From NCBI RefSeq assembly GCF_004421105.1, contig NZ_CP038033.1, positions 1,755,659 to 1,819,658 of the forward strand: 64,000 nt of DNA, given 5' to 3'. Source of the DNA: Nitrosococcus wardiae. GTDB lineage: Bacteria > Pseudomonadota > Gammaproteobacteria > Nitrosococcales > Nitrosococcaceae. The notes under the pieces were generated by a model. It searched no databases. It worked only from the letters and a program-made list of their open reading frames with translations, and was not told where the DNA came from. Positions 13,464-59,850 of this stretch are shown here, one piece after another (the stretch's first letter is position 1; each line of letters opens with the position of its first letter). Position numbers and translations under genes: made by a program.

Positions 13464-13625
13464 ACTCAGTGAAAGTTTTGAGGTCTTTCTGGAGCGAGCC
13501 GGTGGCGTGGAGCCAGGGGACAGAGAAGTCCCGGAAAACCCTTTTTTCAGGAGGAAAAACGGGTTTGCGGAACACCTCCGGCTCGCTCCTAAAACACCTC
13601 ATATTTTATTCTATAGGTACTTATA
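13464..13625 (-). repeat. Dispersed hairpin repeat, copy 1 (short form)
   Basis: Reverse-orientation copy of the 240-bp repeats at 56180 and 57459. The ends match: CTCAGTGAAAG on the left and the complement of TAAGTACCTAT...AATAAAATATGAGG on the right. It carries the terminal arms GAGCGAGCCGG / CCGGCTCGCTC but lacks the central part with the GCGCGCC and GATTCGC hairpins. It lies between an exported-protein gene and a DUF502 remnant. Confidence 0.85.
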
Positions 13626-18872: not shown

Positions 18873-18981
18873 ATTGCCCAAGCTTGGCGCATTGCCTCTT
18901 AAGGGTAATGGCAGATAAAATAGTCGTTTAAGCCGATATATCAGTCCGCATTCCATTTGACAGCTCGTCCGAGATGTGATC

Positions 18982-19446
18982 ACTTCAGCTCATCCAATGA
19001 ACTCAAAGAAGAAAAAAACAGGAGGCTTCGATGGTGTTTCTCCCCGTGCATTGTCCCTATTGCCAAAGCCATCGAGTAGTCAAAAGGGGAAGGAGTGAGA
19101 GCGGAGAGTAGCGTTATTGATGACAGAATGAAGCCTGCGCCCATCGCTCCTTTCGCTTGGATAATGTGTATAAGGGTCGTTTGCCACAAGTCAAGCAGCA
19201 GATTATCGAGATGGCGCTGAACGGGAGTGGGATACGAGAGACGGCGCGGGTTTTAGAGATCAGTCCCCACACGGTGCTCAAGGAGCTAAAAAAAAGAGTC
19301 CCGTCTTAAGTCGGTCAACCCCGCGCTGTTGAAGCGTTTGCCTGCAGAGCAGGCAGAAGTGCAGGTGTTGCGGGTTGAGCAAGAGAAAGTTGATGAAATG
19401 TGGAGTTTTGTGGGAAAGAAAGAGGGATCGGGTCGGAGGGAGAAAT
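18982..19446 (+). mobile_element. IS1-like remnant, copy 1 (truncated)
   Basis: An InsA-type zinc-ribbon protein is encoded from the ATG near 19031 (HCPYCQSHRVVKRGR), then three in-frame stops (GAG TAG CGT TAT TGA TGA), then the rest: ACAHRSFRLDNVYKGRLPQV and LNGSGIRETARVLEISPHTV. The InsB start (RLPAEQAEVQVLRVEQEKVD, EMWSFVGKK) follows, and homology stops near 19430 where the IS481 element begins. The same stops occur in copy 2 at 23235. Confidence 0.8.
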
Positions 19447-20710: not shown

Positions 20711-21283
20711 TCACTTAAGTGAGGGACAGAGTCCACAATGTTTAAAATAGGCTTGACAGTCTTGGGGGGAAATCAGCGTGAGTGCTTCGCTGAGGGCGTG
20801 ATAAAGTTGCTCTTTTGTCCGGGCCGCTTTTTTCTTTAGGCAATGTTTTAGCTTGGACCAAGCCTATTCAATAGGGTTGAGTTCAGGAGGATAGGGTGGT
20901 AAAGAGACCACCCTAGCGCCGGTCTGCTCGATTGGCTCAATCGCCTCTTCATCTCGGTGAGCGGCGGCATTGTCTAAAATGACCACCTTCCCTTCGTGGA
21001 GGTGAGGCCAGAGGAAATGCTCGACATCATAGAGGAAAACCGGGCCATTGAGCGTGCCTTCAAAACACATCGCAGGCAGGACTCCGTCCCTGGATAGGGC
21101 CCCGATGGTGCTAATGCGTTCGCCTTGGGTCGTCGGTTTTTTTCCATAGGCTCTTTGCCCTTGAGGGGCCCGTCCATAGGCGGGGGTCAGATTCAATACC
21201 GCTCCGGTTTCCTCGAGCACAATGAAGTCTTCGGGGGAACACAGGCTCACTTCGACCCAATACTCAAGCCAGCGTTGTTTCAC
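20711..21283 (-). pseudogene. IS630 transposase catalytic half with internal stop
   Basis: The DDE domain: FIVLEETGAVLNLTPAYGRA (the first D is read as E in this copy), VVILDNAAAHRDEEAI and LPPYPPELNPIE. A TAG follows directly after NPIE, after which the frame resumes AWSKLKHCLKKKAARTKEQL and ends SPQDCQAYFKHCGLCPSLK. Catalytic aspartate 1 appears changed to glutamate and the amber codon removes the last 50 residues, so it is probably inactive. Confidence 0.7.
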
Positions 21284-23080: not shown

Positions 23081-23234
23081 TATAAAATCAAGGACTTATC
23101 ATGATACAGGAAGTGCAAGGATCTACCTCTGGCACAGTAATGGCACAATTAGAGGTTGAAGTGGCTAGACTATTCCGGACACACGAACTCAAGTCATCTT
23201 AAAGACAAAATGAGGAAAGTGTGTTGTGATGAAT

Positions 23235-24030
23235 ACTTCAGCTCATCCAATGAACTCAAAGAAGAAAAAAACAGGAGGCTTCCCTGGTGCTTCTCCCCGT
23301 GCATTGTCCCTATTGTCAAAGCCATCGAGTAGTCAAAAGGGGAAGGAGTGAGAGCGGAGAGTAGCGTTATTGATGACAGAATGAAGCCTGCGCCCATTGC
23401 TCCTTTCGCTTGGATAATGTGTATAAGGGTCGCTTGCCACAAGTCAAGCAGCAGATCATTGAGATGGCGCTGAACGGGAGTGGGATACGAGAGACGGCGC
23501 GGGTTTTAGAGATCAGTCCCCACACGGTGCTCAAGGAGCTAAAAAAAAGAGTCCCGTCTTGAGTCGGTCAACCCCGCGCTGTTGAAGCGTTTGCCTGCAG
23601 AGCAGGCAGAAGTGCAGGTGTTGCGGGTTGAGGAAGCGAAAGTCGATGAGATGTGGAGTTTTGTGGGAAAGAAAGCCCAGCCGCGCGGGTTTGCGGCATG
23701 CCATCGACCATCGCAGCGGGCAGGTATTGGCCTACGTTTTGGGAACCCATCAAGACACCGTCTTTTTAAAACTCAAAAGACTTCTTGAGCCTTTTGGACT
23801 CACCCGTTTTTATACCGATGACTGGGGAACCTATCAGCGCCATCTGGACCCCAACAGACACCACATTGGCAAACAAGATACCCAAAAAAATAGAAAGAAA
23901 ACATCTCACCTTACGCACCCGCATTAAGCGATTGGCACGCAAAACGATTTGCTTTTCTAAAACCCAGCAAATGCATGATATTGTCATTGGGCTTTTTATT
24001 AATCGATATGAATTTGGGGTGCAAGTGTAA
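23235..24030 (+). mobile_element. IS1-like remnant, copy 2
   Basis: It starts with the same leader as copy 1 (ACTTCAGCTCATCCAATG) and encodes the same InsA with the same three internal stops. InsB follows across three frames: KRLPAEQAEVQVLRVEEAKV, then DHRSGQVLAYVLGTHQDTVF and RLLEPFGLTRFYTDDWGTYQ, then RKHLTLRTRIKRLARKTICF and INRYEFGVQV. Two frameshifts break InsB. Degenerate and inactive. Confidence 0.8.
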
Positions 24031-25897: not shown

Positions 25898-26179
25898 GGG
25901 GTATGTTCGGGATACGTGTAATAGGGAGTCACTTCAAATAGTGAAGGGTGAGTTCAGATAGATGTCTGAAAAATGGTTTGCCTATCCAATTTATCACCCA
26001 TTATGGATAAAATTTTTTTAAAGACAAAGAAGAACGTCCAGAAATGAGCACATTGTCGGACAAACAGTGATCATCAGTGAACTAATACGGGTAACCACTA
26101 AAAATGGGTTACAAAAATAATATGAAATCAAGCACTAACATCCAGTGACTACTTATTACACGTATCTTGAACATACCCC
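25898..26179. repeat. MITE-like element with 35-bp terminal inverted repeats
   Basis: The left end GGGGTATGTTCGGGATACGT (25898 on) and the right end (26145-26179, reverse complement GGGGTATGTTCAAGATACGT) match at 31 of 35 positions. 282 bp, no coding capacity. A second, truncated copy of its left 97 bp lies at 27841. Confidence 0.75.
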
Positions 26180-27840: not shown

Positions 27841-27936
27841 GGGATATGTTCGGGATACGTGTAATAGGAGTCACTTCAAATAGTGAAGGGTGAGCTCAGA
27901 TAGATGTCTGAAAAATGGTTTACCTATCCAATTTAT
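27841..27936 (+). repeat. Truncated MITE copy (left end)
   Basis: 96 bp matching 25898-25994 with about four differences (GGGATATGTTCGGGATACGT at the start, CCTATCCAATTTAT at the end). The copy stops 6 bp before the IS1595 element. With the first copy it forms a direct repeat around tatABC. Confidence 0.8.
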
Positions 27937-54673: not shown

Positions 54674-56182
54674 GTGTTAAGCCAGCGACATCCCGATACT
54701 CTGGCCGCCATAGACCTGGGGTCCAATAGCTTTCATATGATCATTGCCCGCGTGGTGAGAGAAGGTCAGCTACAGGTACTAGACCGCTTGCGGGAGATGG
54801 TCCAACTGGCCTCCGGCCTCGATAATGATAAGCATTTGAGCGAGGCGGCCCAGGAGCGGGCCCTGAGTTGCTTGGCCCGCTTTGGACAACGCTTGCGGAA
54901 TCTCCCTCCTTGGGCAATCCGGGCCGTGGGCACGAATACCCTACGGCGGGCGCGGAATGCCGATGAATTTTTGGAACGCGCCTGTACTGTTTTGGGCCAT
55001 CCTATTGAAATTATCGCAGGGGATGAGGAGGCTCGGTTGATTTATTTGGGCGTTTCCCATGCCCTAGATTTTGATAATGCCCGACGACTGGTGGTTGATA
55101 TTGGCGGAGGAAGCACAGAGTTCATTATCGGTGAAGGTGCTGAAGAGGGGCGTTATCGGGAAAGCATTGAAATGGGCTGTGTCCATTATAGTCACCGCTT
55201 TTTCCCCAAGGGAATCTTGAATGGAGCTTCTATGCAGCAAGCTGAAATTGCTGCCCGGACGATGTTGCAAGACATTGAACAGCAATTTCGCCATTTAGGG
55301 TGGGAAGAAGCCATAGGGGCTTCGGGAACTATCCGGGCCGTAGCCCGTGTAGTCGCTGCCCAGGGTTGGTGCGGCAGCGGAATGATTACGGCGGCTTCCC
55401 TAAAGGCCCTTGCCCACTTTATGGTGGAGACGGGCCATGTTAAACAACTAAAGCTTGAAGGGGTAAGCCCTGAGCGAGGGCCCGTATTTCCCGGCGGCGT
55501 GGCGATACTCAAAGGCATTTTTGAGAGTCTGGGTATTGAACGCATGACGGTATCGGATGGCGCCCTGCGGGAGGGGTTGCTGTATGATCTCATTGGCCGG
55601 ATTCGCCATGAGGATGTGCGTAGCCGCACTGTTGCTGATTTAGCCCAGCGCTACCATGTGGATCAGTCCCATGCCTCTCGGGTTAAAGAGACTGCCATGG
55701 CATTACTGGAAGCGGCGGCTTCCACCTGGGAGCTGGAAGAAGAAGAGCATTTTTTGTCTTTGCAGTGGGCGGCAATACTCCATGAAGTAGGTCTGGCCCT
55801 TTCCCATAGCCAATACCATAAGCATGGTGCCTATCTCGTGGCCTATAGTGACATGTCTGGTTTTTCCCAGCAGGAGCAGCAGGTCTTGGCGTTCCTGGTG
55901 CGGGGACATCGTCGCAAATTGCCAGTTGCCAAACTAAAGCTGCTTCCCGAGGATCTTCGTCAGCCTACGCTGCGTCTTTGCCTATTGTTGCGGTTGGCGG
56001 TGTTGCTTAACCGCAATCGTTCCCCCATTGCGCTGCCTTATTTAATATTCAAGGTCGATCAGAACACTTTAAAGCTTAAATTTCCTGAAGGGTGGCTGGT
56101 TCAACATCCGCTGACCGAAGCCGATCTGGTCCAGGAAGCCGGTTATGTGAAGGCGGCGGGTTATCGTCTCAAAGCCAAATAA
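54674..56182 (+). CDS. ppx: Exopolyphosphatase Ppx/GppA
   Basis: 502 residues from a GTG. Acetate-kinase/Hsp70-type ATPase motifs: AAIDLGSNSFHMIIARV, VGTNTLRRARNADEFLERAC, IAGDEEARLIYLGVSHALDF, and VDIGGGSTEFIIGE. The C-terminal HD-like helical domain follows (about 310-500). It removes terminal phosphates from polyphosphate (or pppGpp). Downstream of the pst-phoU genes; the stop codon coincides with the start of a dispersed repeat. Confidence 0.93.
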   Translation: MLSQRHPDTLAAIDLGSNSFHMIIARVVREGQLQVLDRLREMVQLASGLDNDKHLSEAAQERALSCLARFGQRLRNLPPWAIRAVGTNTLRRARNADEFLERACTVLGHPIEIIAGDEEARLIYLGVSHALDFDNARRLVVDIGGGSTEFIIGEGAEEGRYRESIEMGCVHYSHRFFPKGILNGASMQQAEIAARTMLQDIEQQFRHLGWEEAIGASGTIRAVARVVAAQGWCGSGMITAASLKALAHFMVETGHVKQLKLEGVSPERGPVFPGGVAILKGIFESLGIERMTVSDGALREGLLYDLIGRIRHEDVRSRTVADLAQRYHVDQSHASRVKETAMALLEAAASTWELEEEEHFLSLQWAAILHEVGLALSHSQYHKHGAYLVAYSDMSGFSQQEQQVLAFLVRGHRRKLPVAKLKLLPEDLRQPTLRLCLLLRLAVLLNRNRSPIALPYLIFKVDQNTLKLKFPEGWLVQHPLTEADLVQEAGYVKAAGYRLKAK

Positions 56183-56419
56183 ATACCTCTGAATAAAATT
56201 ATGAGGTGTTTTAGGAGCGAGCCGGAGGTGTTCCGCAAACCCGTTTTTTCTCCCTGAAAAAAGGGGTCGATGCGCGCCCTCCCTGGCGCGCCCCTGAGGG
56301 GCCTCCTCCGGATGTCCCGATTCGCTCCCGGCGAATCGGTGCGGGGACTTCCCTGTCCCCTGGTTCCACGCCACCGGCTCGCTCCAAGAATACTTCAAAA
56401 CTTTCACTGAGATACTTAA
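56180..56419 (+). repeat. Dispersed hairpin repeat, copy 2
   Basis: 240 bp between ppx and the CYTH gene. Contains terminal arms GAGCGAGCCGG / CCGGCTCGCTC and internal hairpins (GCGCGCC...GGCGCGCC; GATTCGC...GCGAATC; GGGGAC...GTCCCC). About 95% identical by eye to copy 3. It begins inside the ppx stop codon and ends 3 bp before the CYTH start codon, so it carries the leader of the CYTH gene. Confidence 0.9.
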
Positions 56420-56422
56420 ATT

Positions 56423-57388
56423 ATGCCGACAGAGAGCGAAATCAAGTTAAGGTTGGCCCCAGGGTACTTGTCCAAAGTGAGTGAACATCCCCTGGTGAGC
56501 CGGGATGTCCATCAGGGTCCGATGCGCAAGCACTTGCAAAGCATCTATTTCGATACCCCTGATTTAGGACTCCTAAAACAAGGGGTAGGGTTGCGGGTGC
56601 GCCGGATAGATCACCGCTGGGTCCAGACCGTCAAAGGAGCCAGTTCTGGGGGGGCTGGACTCCATCGTCGCCAGGAATGGGAAAGCGAGGTGGACAATAA
56701 CAGTCCCAATCTGGAGCGGTTAGCGGCAGAAGCCAAGGTAGGAGTACTTGGAGAAGCGGATCTCGCCGCCCGGTTAATCCCGGTGTTTGAAACGGATTTT
56801 TGGCGTACCAGTTGGATTTTACAGATAAGGGATGAGAGTGCAATTGAATTGGCTTTGGACGAGGGGCATATCTGTTCGAATAGCCGCACCGAGCCCTTAT
56901 CCGAACTGGAGTTGGAGCTCAAACAAGGAGAGGATAGGGATCTCTATTGGATGGCCTTGCAGCTGGCTGAGATTGTTCCCCTTACCGTGGAACATGCCAG
57001 CAAGGCCGAACGGGGTTATCGACTCTACACTCAACAGTTTTCCCCCCTAGCAGCACCAGAGCCCGCTCCCGCCGATGCAGTCACTGATTTCCGGCTATTG
57101 GGGTATTGGCTCGCTGACTTACAATACGGTGAACGGTTATTGCTTGAAAGGCGCGATCCCCAAGGGTGCGGCCACTTACAGGCAGCGGCTGAAAATTTGC
57201 ATAGAAGTTTGGTAGCGGCAGGCCAGGGAGTGGAGGTTCACCTTCAAGAAGATCTAGACTGGCTCGTCAGGGGTTTACAAGAAAGCAAGGATTTTGCTGA
57301 AGCTTGTCATTTGGTGGCGGCTCCCCGCTATAGCCGGTTGTTGTTACGTTTGGGAGGTTACCTGGCAGAGTTAGAAGCAAGGGGCTGA
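56423..57388 (+). CDS. CYTH domain protein with shortened CHAD-like tail
   Basis: 321 residues. Residues 1-205 are a CYTH triphosphate tunnel: ESEIKLRL (ExExK at 4-8), YFDTPDLGLLKQGVGLRVRR, WVQTVKGAS, RQEWESEV, IELALDEGHI and SELELELKQGED, with PLTVEHASKAERGYRLY near its end. Residues 215-321 are a helical tail that aligns loosely with CHAD (GYWLADLQYGERLLLERRDP, RYSRLLLRLGGYL), but it is about half the usual length and lacks the basic HQxR-type motif. Related to inorganic triphosphatase YgiF. Flanked by repeats, between ppx and ppk1. Confidence 0.85.
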   Translation: MPTESEIKLRLAPGYLSKVSEHPLVSRDVHQGPMRKHLQSIYFDTPDLGLLKQGVGLRVRRIDHRWVQTVKGASSGGAGLHRRQEWESEVDNNSPNLERLAAEAKVGVLGEADLAARLIPVFETDFWRTSWILQIRDESAIELALDEGHICSNSRTEPLSELELELKQGEDRDLYWMALQLAEIVPLTVEHASKAERGYRLYTQQFSPLAAPEPAPADAVTDFRLLGYWLADLQYGERLLLERRDPQGCGHLQAAAENLHRSLVAAGQGVEVHLQEDLDWLVRGLQESKDFAEACHLVAAPRYSRLLLRLGGYLAELEARG

Positions 57389-57458
57389 CTTGAGTTATGC
57401 TTATTTGCTGCCCCAGAAAACGGCTGGTGGTGGAATCCGGCTGAACCAGGCATAAGCA

Positions 57459-57699
57459 TAAGTACCTATGAATAAAATATGAGGTGTTTTAAAAGCGAGC
57501 CGGAGGTGTTCCACAAACCCGTTTTTCCTCCCTGAAAAAAGGGGTCGATGCGCGCCCTCCCTGGCGCGCCCCCTATAAGGGGCCTCCTCCGGATGTCCCG
57601 ATTCGCTCCCGGCGAATCGGTGTGGGGACTTCCCTGTCCCCTGGCTCCACGCCACCGGCTCGCTCCAAGAATACTGCAAAACTTTTACTGAGATACTTA
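57459..57699 (+). repeat. Dispersed hairpin repeat, copy 3
   Basis: Direct-orientation copy of the element at 56180, with the same ends (GTACCTATGAATAAAAT; TACTGAGATACTTA). Lies between the convergent CYTH and ppk1 genes. Its hairpins could act as a bidirectional terminator. Confidence 0.9.
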
Positions 57700-57777
57700 G
57701 GGTATAACATCGCAGGACACTTTGAAAACTTTTGCTGAAGCGTGGACCCAAGAAATTGGGGCTAGATCCGGTGGTTT

Positions 57778-59850
57778 TTAGTCAGCCCGCTTTTCCAGCA
57801 ATATCTGTTGGGCCGAGCGGGATTTTTGGTTGCCGGTGGGTTTGAGGCGTTTGTAACTGCCGTCAGATTGCAGTATCCAGGCCTGGGTGTTATCTGAAAG
57901 ATAGAGTAACAGCCCTTCTTTCAATAGCCGCTCGGCTAGGCGTGGGTCTTCAATGGGAAAGGCGGTTTCGACGCGGCGAAACATGTTCCGCTCCATCCAA
58001 TCGGCGCTGGAGCAGTAGATCTCGCTATGGCCATCATTGAGAAAATAATAAATGCGGCTGTGCTCTAGAAAACGGCCGATAATGGAGCGTACCTGAATGT
58101 TGTCGGAGACATTGGGAATACCAGGTCGCAGTCGGCAGATCCCGCGGATGATAAGCTCGATTTTTACCCCGGCCTGGGAAGCCTGATAAAGGGCTTGGAT
58201 GAGTTGGGGCTCAGTGAGGGAATTCATCTTGGCAATGAGGTGGGCAGGTTTGCCATCCTTAGCATGCTCTGCTTCCCGGTCGATATAGCTGATAAGCTGC
58301 TTATGCAGGGTAAAGGGGGATAGCCACAGTTTCTTGAGTTTGCGGGCTCGACCGAGCCCAGTCAGTTGTGAAAAGATCTTATGGGCATCATCGCCGATAT
58401 CCTTATCGCAGGTCAGCAGACCAATATCAGTATAGATCCGGCTAGTTCGAGCATGGTAATTGCCAGTGCTTAGATGGACATAACGCCGCAGGCGCTTCCC
58501 CTCCCGGCGCACGACAACCATTGCTTTAGCGTGGCTTTTATAGCCCACCACGCCATAAACTACTTGAGCACCCGCATCTTGTAGGCGGTTGGCCAAATGA
58601 ATATTTTCTTCTTCGTCGAAGCGAGCCCGCAGTTCCACTACTGCAGTGACTTCTTTGCCTGTTTTGGCAGCTTCCACCAGGGCATCGACAATGGCAGAAT
58701 CAGGACCCGTGCGGTAGAGGGTTTGTTTAATCGCCAGCACTTGCGGATCGGCCGCCGCTTTACGTAAAAATTCAATCACCGGGACAAAGGATTCGAAAGG
58801 ATGATGCAGCAGCACGTCGCCCCGCTGGATAATTTCAAAAATATCTGTGTTGCGGGTCATGCGCAGGGGAAGACCGGGGGTGAAAGGGGGATATTTGAGA
58901 TCAGGGCGGTCGACCAGGTCTGGCAGCGCTATCAGACGATTCACGTTGACTGGCCCATTCACTTTATAGAGGTCATCTAAAGTGAGGTTAAACTGTTTGA
59001 GAAGAAAGTCGGCCATCTCGTCAGAGCAGTTATCTGCGACTTCTAAACGGACAGCATCGCCATAGCGGCGGGTCGACAGTTCTCCTTCCAGAGCATGGAG
59101 TAGGTCATCGATTTCTTCCTCATCCACAAATAGATCGCTGTTCCGGGTGACCCGGAATTGGTAGCAGCCCGTCGCGGACATGCCGGGGAACAGGTCATCC
59201 ACATAGGCATGGATAATGGAGGAGAGGAAAATGAACTCGTAGGGTCCTTTGGCATAAGTGCGGGGCACATGGATGAGTCGTGGCAAAGTCCGCGGGGCCA
59301 TGACCACGGCAATCCCGTTTTCGCGGCCAAAGGCATCCTTTCCTTCTAGGGCAACAATAAAATTCAGACTCTTATTGATAATGCGAGGAAAGGGGTGGGC
59401 GGGGTCCAAGCCCAGCGGGCTGAGCATGGGGACTAGCTCGCTATTAAAGTAGCGTTTTACCCATTGGGCTTGTTTGGGAGTCCATTCCTGGCGCCGGAGA
59501 AAACGAATGTTTTCCTTTTCAAGTTGGGGAAACAAGGTTTCCTGTAAGATCCGGTATTGTTCTTCCACTATGCTGTGGGCATATTCACTGACCCGCTTTA
59601 AAGTTTCTTGGGGAGTTAAACCATCCGGACCTGCCTGGACTGAGCCTAGGGCAATCTGCTCCTTAAGCCCAGATACCCGGATTTCGAAGAATTCATCTAG
59701 ATTGGTGCTGGAAATGCACAGAAAACGTAGCCTTTCCAATAAGGGAATGCTTTCATCCGTCGCCTGGGCAAGTACCCGGCTGTGAAATTGCAGCAGGCTA
59801 AGCTCGCGATTGAGATAAAGATCCGGGTGTTTGAGGTCGGGGGCATCCAT
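57778..59850 (-). CDS. ppk1: Polyphosphate kinase 1
   Basis: 690 residues, the usual Ppk1 length. N domain (LYLNRELSLLQFHSRVLAQA), head domain (MLSPLGLDPAHPFPRIINKS) and two PLD-like C domains with the active-site region YKSHAKAMVVVRREG and RRYVHLSTGNYHARTSRIYT, then FLEHSRIYYFLNDGHSEIYC. Makes polyphosphate from ATP. Only 29 bp after bolA in the same direction, so it may be the last gene of yciB-yciI-bolA-ppk1. It converges on the CYTH gene. Confidence 0.95.
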   Translation of the reverse strand: MDAPDLKHPDLYLNRELSLLQFHSRVLAQATDESIPLLERLRFLCISSTNLDEFFEIRVSGLKEQIALGSVQAGPDGLTPQETLKRVSEYAHSIVEEQYRILQETLFPQLEKENIRFLRRQEWTPKQAQWVKRYFNSELVPMLSPLGLDPAHPFPRIINKSLNFIVALEGKDAFGRENGIAVVMAPRTLPRLIHVPRTYAKGPYEFIFLSSIIHAYVDDLFPGMSATGCYQFRVTRNSDLFVDEEEIDDLLHALEGELSTRRYGDAVRLEVADNCSDEMADFLLKQFNLTLDDLYKVNGPVNVNRLIALPDLVDRPDLKYPPFTPGLPLRMTRNTDIFEIIQRGDVLLHHPFESFVPVIEFLRKAAADPQVLAIKQTLYRTGPDSAIVDALVEAAKTGKEVTAVVELRARFDEEENIHLANRLQDAGAQVVYGVVGYKSHAKAMVVVRREGKRLRRYVHLSTGNYHARTSRIYTDIGLLTCDKDIGDDAHKIFSQLTGLGRARKLKKLWLSPFTLHKQLISYIDREAEHAKDGKPAHLIAKMNSLTEPQLIQALYQASQAGVKIELIIRGICRLRPGIPNVSDNIQVRSIIGRFLEHSRIYYFLNDGHSEIYCSSADWMERNMFRRVETAFPIEDPRLAERLLKEGLLLYLSDNTQAWILQSDGSYKRLKPTGNQKSRSAQQILLEKRAD

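Follow-up and report, generated by a model that had tools for sequence, protein, structure and literature searches.

Organization of the CYTH locus

The window considered here, a stretch of 64,000 nucleotides from the genome of Nitrosococcus wardiae (NZ_CP038033.1, positions 1,755,659 to 1,819,658), holds a polyphosphate cluster in which an intact gene of the CYTH family is bordered on each side by a hairpin-forming repeat of about 240 bp. The upstream repeat (copy 2) occupies the junction between ppx and the CYTH gene, the downstream one (copy 3) lies between CYTH and the convergent ppk gene, and a shorter relative (copy 1) is found elsewhere in the window. The origin of these repeats, and whether their placement around CYTH is special, are the subject of this analysis. 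The relevant features are, in window coordinates:

54674..56182, plus strand: ppx, exopolyphosphatase family (Pfam Ppx-GppA 6.6e-77, domain III 5.7e-54)
56180-56182, plus strand: ppx stop codon TAA, overlapping the left TA of copy 2
56180..56418, plus strand: copy 2, long form, TA + 235 nt (56182-56416) + TA; flanking TAs read directly at 56180-56181 (within the ppx stop) and 56417-56418
56269..56340, plus strand: internal 72-bp module of copy 2, here called M, with two small hairpins; M has copies elsewhere
56423..57388, plus strand: CYTH gene, 321 aa, intact (Pfam CYTH 3.6e-21), with orthologues in all three other genomes of the genus
57459..57699, plus strand: copy 3, long form, TA + 237 nt (57461-57697) + TA; flanking TAs read directly at 57459-57460 and 57698-57699
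57547..57621, plus strand: module M of copy 3, 75 nt
57778..59850, minus strand: ppk, polyphosphate kinase, convergent neighbour (four Pfam PP_kinase domains)
13465..13621 (about), minus strand: copy 1, short form without module M, right end degraded

An earlier note on this DNA had described two hairpin repeats flanking CYTH in the same orientation, the first of them beginning inside the ppx stop codon, and direct reading together with a repeat search confirms the arrangement (95.3% identity between copies 2 and 3 over aligned columns, 94% in another comparison). The same note had copy 2 ending just before the CYTH ATG, which is correct as to position, although the gap from the TA is 4 nt and not 3. 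It also placed a copy near 13464; one is present there, but on the other strand and as a short form of about 160 nt, with a TA at 13622-13623 adjoining its intact left end. All three of its copies are real, but they are a small part of a family that occupies at least 72 places in the genome. Copy 2 folds at a predicted -118.1 kcal/mol, its shuffles averaging -74.3 (z -9.2, or -7.1 with flanks), and copies 3 and 1 have z of -5.8 and -6.9; none of 200 shuffles was as stable in any of the three.

A dispersed repeat family with TA-flanked ends

The family was sought in the genome that holds the window (G000, one contig of 4,022,640 bases) with three queries, namely the long copy, the short copy and a core pattern, and was followed into a sister species (G001) and two further genomes of the genus (G002 and G003). 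Homology searches of G000 returned 54 match rows (40 of 100 candidates scored) and 51 (40 of 86 scored), while the core pattern gave 91 matches and its reversed control none. Merged, these make 64 places, 50 with start and end assigned and 14 partial, to which end-pattern searches add eight small forms; the resulting 72 is a lower bound, since only part of the candidates was scored. The left-end pattern matched 61 times in G000 and 25 times in G001 against 9 and 3 for its reversed control, and some left-end matches without a right end are chance, whereas the right-end control pattern matched nowhere.

Wherever both ends can be recognized they are fixed, in the form TA|AGTACCTATGAATAAAA...ACTGAGATACT|TA. 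Of the 51 complete copies in G000, 44 are bordered by TA on each side, as are 12 of 14 in G001; across the window TA accounts for 5% of dinucleotides. The count itself relied on patterns that exclude TA; moreover, 43 of the 51 complete G000 copies were found by homology or core pattern with no use of TA, and 37 of these 43 have it on both sides. The consensus ends read AGTACCT and AGTATCT, with left and right equal at 15 of 24 positions. By length, the complete G000 copies comprise five of 61 nt, one of 89, three of 115-123, 22 of 140-165, 19 of 178-243 and one of 341, such that 50 of the 51 are short (61-243 nt), transposase-free units with terminal inverted repeats. The 61-nt form is both ends alone, the 162-nt form adds a hairpin flanked by two AGG triplets, and the long form carries the 72-bp module in addition, close to the apex. 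Some short forms may be deletions of long ones, because long forms are present in G002 and G003 as well. At G000:3584088 and 95487 the inner hairpin appears by eye to run in the opposite sense to the ends, which would suit a recombination between the arms.

Outside G000 the family thins out quickly. The stretches retrieved from G001 hold 14 copies with both ends, while G002 and G003 give four and eight weaker matches that look old and divergent by eye, one of which (L036, in G003) keeps both ends. None of the 25 genomes of other genera matches the repeat, among 29 genomes searched that include four of the genus with G000 itself. A scan of genome contigs with a 22-base left-end pattern likewise returned no stretch, the window's own and very near genomes possibly lying outside that scan. 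There is also a sister subfamily, with the same left end followed by about AAAATATGGGGGATGTTTAGGAGCGAGGGGGTAGTGC (L107, L111, L116, L118, L120 and L126 in G001, and G000:2423315); its right ends may include sequences such as CTCAAAACTTTCGCTGGGGTACTTA.

With genes called by a simple open reading frame (ORF) rule, the 51 complete G000 copies fall into 27 co-directional, 15 divergent and 7 convergent gaps, with two unclassed; in the co-directional gaps 16 elements lie on the strand of the genes and 11 on the opposite strand. Under the same rule none of the 51 is spanned by an ORF of at least 100 aa that reaches 60 nt beyond it on either side. The earlier note would have regarded its proposals as refuted by a lack of expression effect and of copy-number variation among relatives, together with an equal spread over intergenic gaps; half of this applies, in that complete copies occur in every type of gap but their number does differ among relatives. 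Many dispersed, mostly intergenic copies, a target site duplication, and presence or absence among relatives are the marks of a miniature inverted-repeat transposable element (MITE), and all were found here.

Empty and shared insertion sites

Comparison with the relatives was limited to sites whose flanks lie inside the stretches retrieved from them. At the ppx-CYTH junction these genomes read TAG-TC-ATG (G001), TAA-GTG (G002) and TAA-CTTGATAA-ATG (G003), against TA-(element)-TA-AATTATG in G000, such that a gap of 0-8 nt in the three relatives corresponds to a hairpin of about 240 nt in G000. No repeat was found by blastn in the 4.8-5.6 kb around the orthologous CYTH gene in any of the three, and among the four genomes the insertion is seen in G000 alone. 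This empty site is approximate, the reconstructed junction being 1 nt off that of G001. The cleanest case is G000:637009, whose counterpart in G001 is empty base by base with a single TA; for G001:3851951 the empty counterpart in G000 shows a 2-nt difference at the junction. Two insertions are common to G000 and G001 (G000:3184467 = G001:1628778; G000:1605139 = G001:3390556). Shared and empty sites together show that insertions differ in age: some preceded the split of these two species and others followed it. For copy 3 (57461) the left flank alone aligned with the G001 stretches compared.

An IS630-family element with matching ends

TA is the target of insertion in the IS630 family, and transposase domains of that type (Pfam DDE_3) have 23, 10, 26 and 33 matches in G000 through G003, respectively. 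One IS630-family element, at G000:3943800-3944870 (1071 bp, TA-flanked, with ends AGTACCACTGCATAAATTATGG and AGTACCTAAGCAAAAGTTATGT), equals the MITE consensus at 37 of 48 terminal positions (19/24 left, 18/24 right), whereas 20,000 shuffles never reached 37 and attained 27 at most. Its protein is assigned to the family by Pfam (DDE_3, 6.5e-31) and by the NCBIfam IS630 transposase model (136.2 bits, cut-off 100). With ends, target and empty sites in agreement, the repeats are best regarded as dispersed copies of an IS630-type MITE that inserts at TA, and copies 2 and 3 as separate insertions that do not form a CYTH cassette; we hold this with high confidence. The MITE would have been mobilized in trans by an IS630 transposase since decayed or not found. 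That enzyme is best read as decayed or as lying outside the sequences seen, because the sole near-complete partner is broken and its relatives in G003 are fragments (51-71% identity); G000 itself holds a further fragment of 31 aa at 3307682 (77%).

Several observations weigh against this interpretation. TA is missing on at least one side in 7 of the 51 G000 copies and 2 of the 14 in G001, which is read as decay, and the eight small G000 forms, like all G001 copies but two, were fetched with patterns that contain TA. Of the three empty sites just one is exact base by base, and a TA that belongs to a stop codon is weak evidence when taken alone. The partner is a single near-complete copy in G000 with its transposase split over reading frames, and no intact transposase of the repeat family was found in the four genus genomes. 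The ends of IS630 elements were inspected at a sample only (8 groups, then 12 loci, six of them repeated, plus the window's own copy); matching ends occurred at one of the sampled loci, and the multi-copy types in the first sample have other ends. In the second sample an end finder returned L160 and a weak match at L178 (14/22, with unrelated ends) and nothing at the ten other loci or the window's IS630 stretch; it misses some elements with clear limits, and its silence is weak evidence. Finally, the identity margins by which copies are ranked below amount to a few bases, or about 1%.

The IS630 gene within the window (about 20804-21220, minus strand) has an internal stop and is enclosed by direct repeats of 300 nt with 97% identity (18977-19276 and 23230-23529, 4.25 kb apart).

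Alternative explanations for the CYTH-flanking pair

The earlier note had raised the possibility that the paired repeats allow recombinational loss of CYTH, and two direct copies of about 235 bp with 95% identity, 1.28 kb apart, do offer homology enough for such a deletion, which is mechanically possible. A functional cassette of this kind, serving phase or strain variation, is nonetheless very improbable. For 72 random places in 4.02 Mb, 1.63 adjacent pairs within 1281 bp are expected by chance (probability of at least one 0.81), or 0.82 in the same orientation (0.57; 5000 simulations), and one such pair was observed. CYTH is present in all four genus genomes and in 25 of 29 related genomes, the three relatives in the genus carrying it with no repeat nearby. 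In addition, its ratio of nonsynonymous to synonymous substitution (dN/dS) is 0.17 between G000 and G001, with 11 amino-acid changes on its own branch and 12 on the sister branch, such that the proposed loss finds no support. Same orientation and high identity might also suggest that both repeats arose recently by local duplication, but we give this almost no credence: their flanks differ, and among the 21 long copies each is slightly nearer a distant copy than its neighbour, albeit by small margins (for copy 3, 583882 at 96.6% and 3803694 at 95.7%, then copy 2 at 95.3%; for copy 2, 583882 at 96.2%). Equally hard to sustain is an assignment to repetitive extragenic palindromes (REPs) or their mosaic assemblies (BIMEs), moved by a REP-associated tyrosine transposase (RAYT). 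The repeats are palindromic, intergenic and numerous, and module M also occurs inside palindromes that look GTAG-tagged by eye. REPs, however, are palindromes of 20-40 nt tagged GTAG or CGTC (PMC3733652 for the GTAG units), whereas the present repeat reaches 243 nt, bears terminal repeats between flanking TAs and has ends matching those of an IS630 element. The TA-flanked ends and the clean empty site at G000:637009 largely disfavour the REP assignment.

There remains the question of whether copy 2 was kept for regulation of CYTH, as a hairpin leader, an RNase III site or an insulator from ppx, the roles of leader and insulator having been suggested in the earlier note. Its right end supplies the bases preceding the CYTH start, and the repeat is by position now the leader of that gene, seated exactly in the junction 4 nt before the ATG where relatives have 0-8 nt. 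The hairpin is very stable, also with its flanks, and the review PMC10969869 reports that RNase III cleaves Correia elements and that promoters lie within them. Position is, however, the only part of the suggestion that stands. A simple scan of 56100-57800 found neither sigma-70-like promoters nor terminators (shuffle means 0.9 and 2.4). Among 25 short copies, 97% of stem cells are paired, yet double changes of any kind affect only 4 of 52 pairs and are mostly confined to a single sequence, and selection on structure is thus unsupported by these copies; the insertion is moreover confined to one of four genomes. Retention for such a role is accordingly rated unlikely, though less so than the three explanations above.

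Possible effect of copy 2 on CYTH

Even as an ordinary MITE insertion, copy 2 may have consequences for CYTH. The gap of 0-8 nt in relatives is, we infer, the arrangement of translationally coupled genes, and the insertion in G000 lengthened it to a spacer of about 240 nt of hairpin, probably at the cost of that coupling. The ppx and CYTH reading frames are both intact after the insertion. A transcribed hairpin may be cut by double-strand RNases, which is reported for Correia elements. CYTH dN/dS is 0.22 between G002 and G003, and that of ppx is 0.08; relaxed selection on CYTH was considered and rejected on the ratio and branch counts given above. Because neither measure gives a sign of decay, the CYTH protein is probably still produced, although its coupling to ppx would be altered and the processing of its mRNA may be too.

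Module M within and beyond the MITE

Module M spans 72 nt, or 24 codons, and four of the six frames of its consensus are open. Copies of it independent of the MITE are present in G001 and G000. Seven copies lie, by eye, inside GTAG-like palindromes with outer arms of about CCGGAAACGGCC...CCGGCCTAC (L084, L085, L086, L088 and L166 in G001; L175 and L177 in G000), and others lie within open reading frames (L087, L165, L167, L168, L170, L171, L173 and L174 in G001; L176 in G000), where one frame gives a peptide beginning RFAGSESG. Two units stand in tandem, 72 bp apart, at G001:3128195 and 3128267.

Presence within an open frame is weak evidence by itself, and the case is made by L171, a gene with a HAD-like region. 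Its orthologues in G000 and G002 align on both sides of M with no gap, that of G003 does likewise but has a frame change of its own, and the DNA compared with G000 shows a net insertion of 72 nt. These alignments demonstrate an in-frame M within one gene of the sister species. In L165, a MerR-type regulator, two alignments from a structure database break off at residue 92-93 and pick up again at 122-128. In the efflux adaptor L173 and the copper P-type ATPase L087, M lies upstream of the recognized domain and NCBIfam scores fall below the curated cut-offs (partial proteins); the ATPase copy occupies the same site in G000 and G001. L174 had no family match in either library searched.

The exact second hairpin of M (23 nt) recurs in 53 stretches of other, mostly gammaproteobacterial genomes (L187-L239), many from the same few assemblies, including Nevskia, Dokdonella, Halothiobacillus, Thioalkalivibrio and Rhodanobacter. 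By eye it commonly stands behind a similarly built hairpin, usually as a two-hairpin unit, and the outer arms are similar to tRNA 3' sequence in L198, L199 and L238.

There is about an even case that the long form combines two palindromes, each mobile in its own right: an IS630-type MITE and, as its core, a 72-bp element that elsewhere in the same genomes inserts in frame into protein genes and also into GTAG-like palindromes. The MITE would then act as a vehicle spreading M, which otherwise would spread by a route of its own, and successive insertions close to the apex would lengthen the hairpin (classes of 61, about 115, 162 and 235 nt), although the reverse order is possible. Rickettsia palindromic elements (RPEs) and in-gene REPs have been described in several species, as outlined in PMC3733652, and are alike in being palindromic units inserted in frame in protein genes. 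That likeness is one of behaviour; M is 72 bp and is also carried in MITEs and GTAG-like palindromes, and in-frame insertion with an uninterrupted orthologue was found, for M only, in one gene (L171). No in-gene palindrome shared with a MITE core was met in the openly licensed literature searched.

Relation to known repeats

Compared with IS630 insertion sequences, the repeats share TA at both ends, matching end sequences and a DDE_3 partner in the genome, but differ in having no transposase, their partner being broken and divergent (37/48 end positions). BOX elements of Streptococcus have a modular interior and several length classes; the Nitrosococcus repeat is also modular, and its length classes share TA-flanked ends. 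The Correia repeat of Neisseria and the enterobacterial repetitive intergenic consensus (ERIC) both use a TA target. These two are also short and palindromic, with dozens to hundreds of mostly intergenic copies, according to PMC10969869; compared by description, the Nitrosococcus repeat differs in that its ends match an IS630 element in its own genome and its long form carries a module that also occurs alone. Rfam returned nothing at gathering score; the best match, RsmW, scored 24.4 bits against 52, and such sub-threshold matches are treated as chance.

One further direct repeat lies in the window, of 70 nt with 97% identity (25925-25994 and 27867-27936, 1.94 kb apart).

Implications

No description of the repeat family was found in the openly licensed literature, most subscription journals lying outside the search. 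The TA-flanked IS630-type MITE family is new for the ammonia-oxidizing Nitrosococcus, while elements of this kind are themselves known. What seemed a special gene-flanking repeat becomes an ordinary mobile-element insertion, and counts of copies and of pairs guard against over-reading such arrangements. Module M is a palindrome carried by MITEs that has also been proven, at least once, to lie in frame within a protein gene of a free-living bacterium. In the polyphosphate cluster, the tight ppx-CYTH junction split by copy 2 is a natural experiment on how translational coupling is affected by a hairpin MITE.

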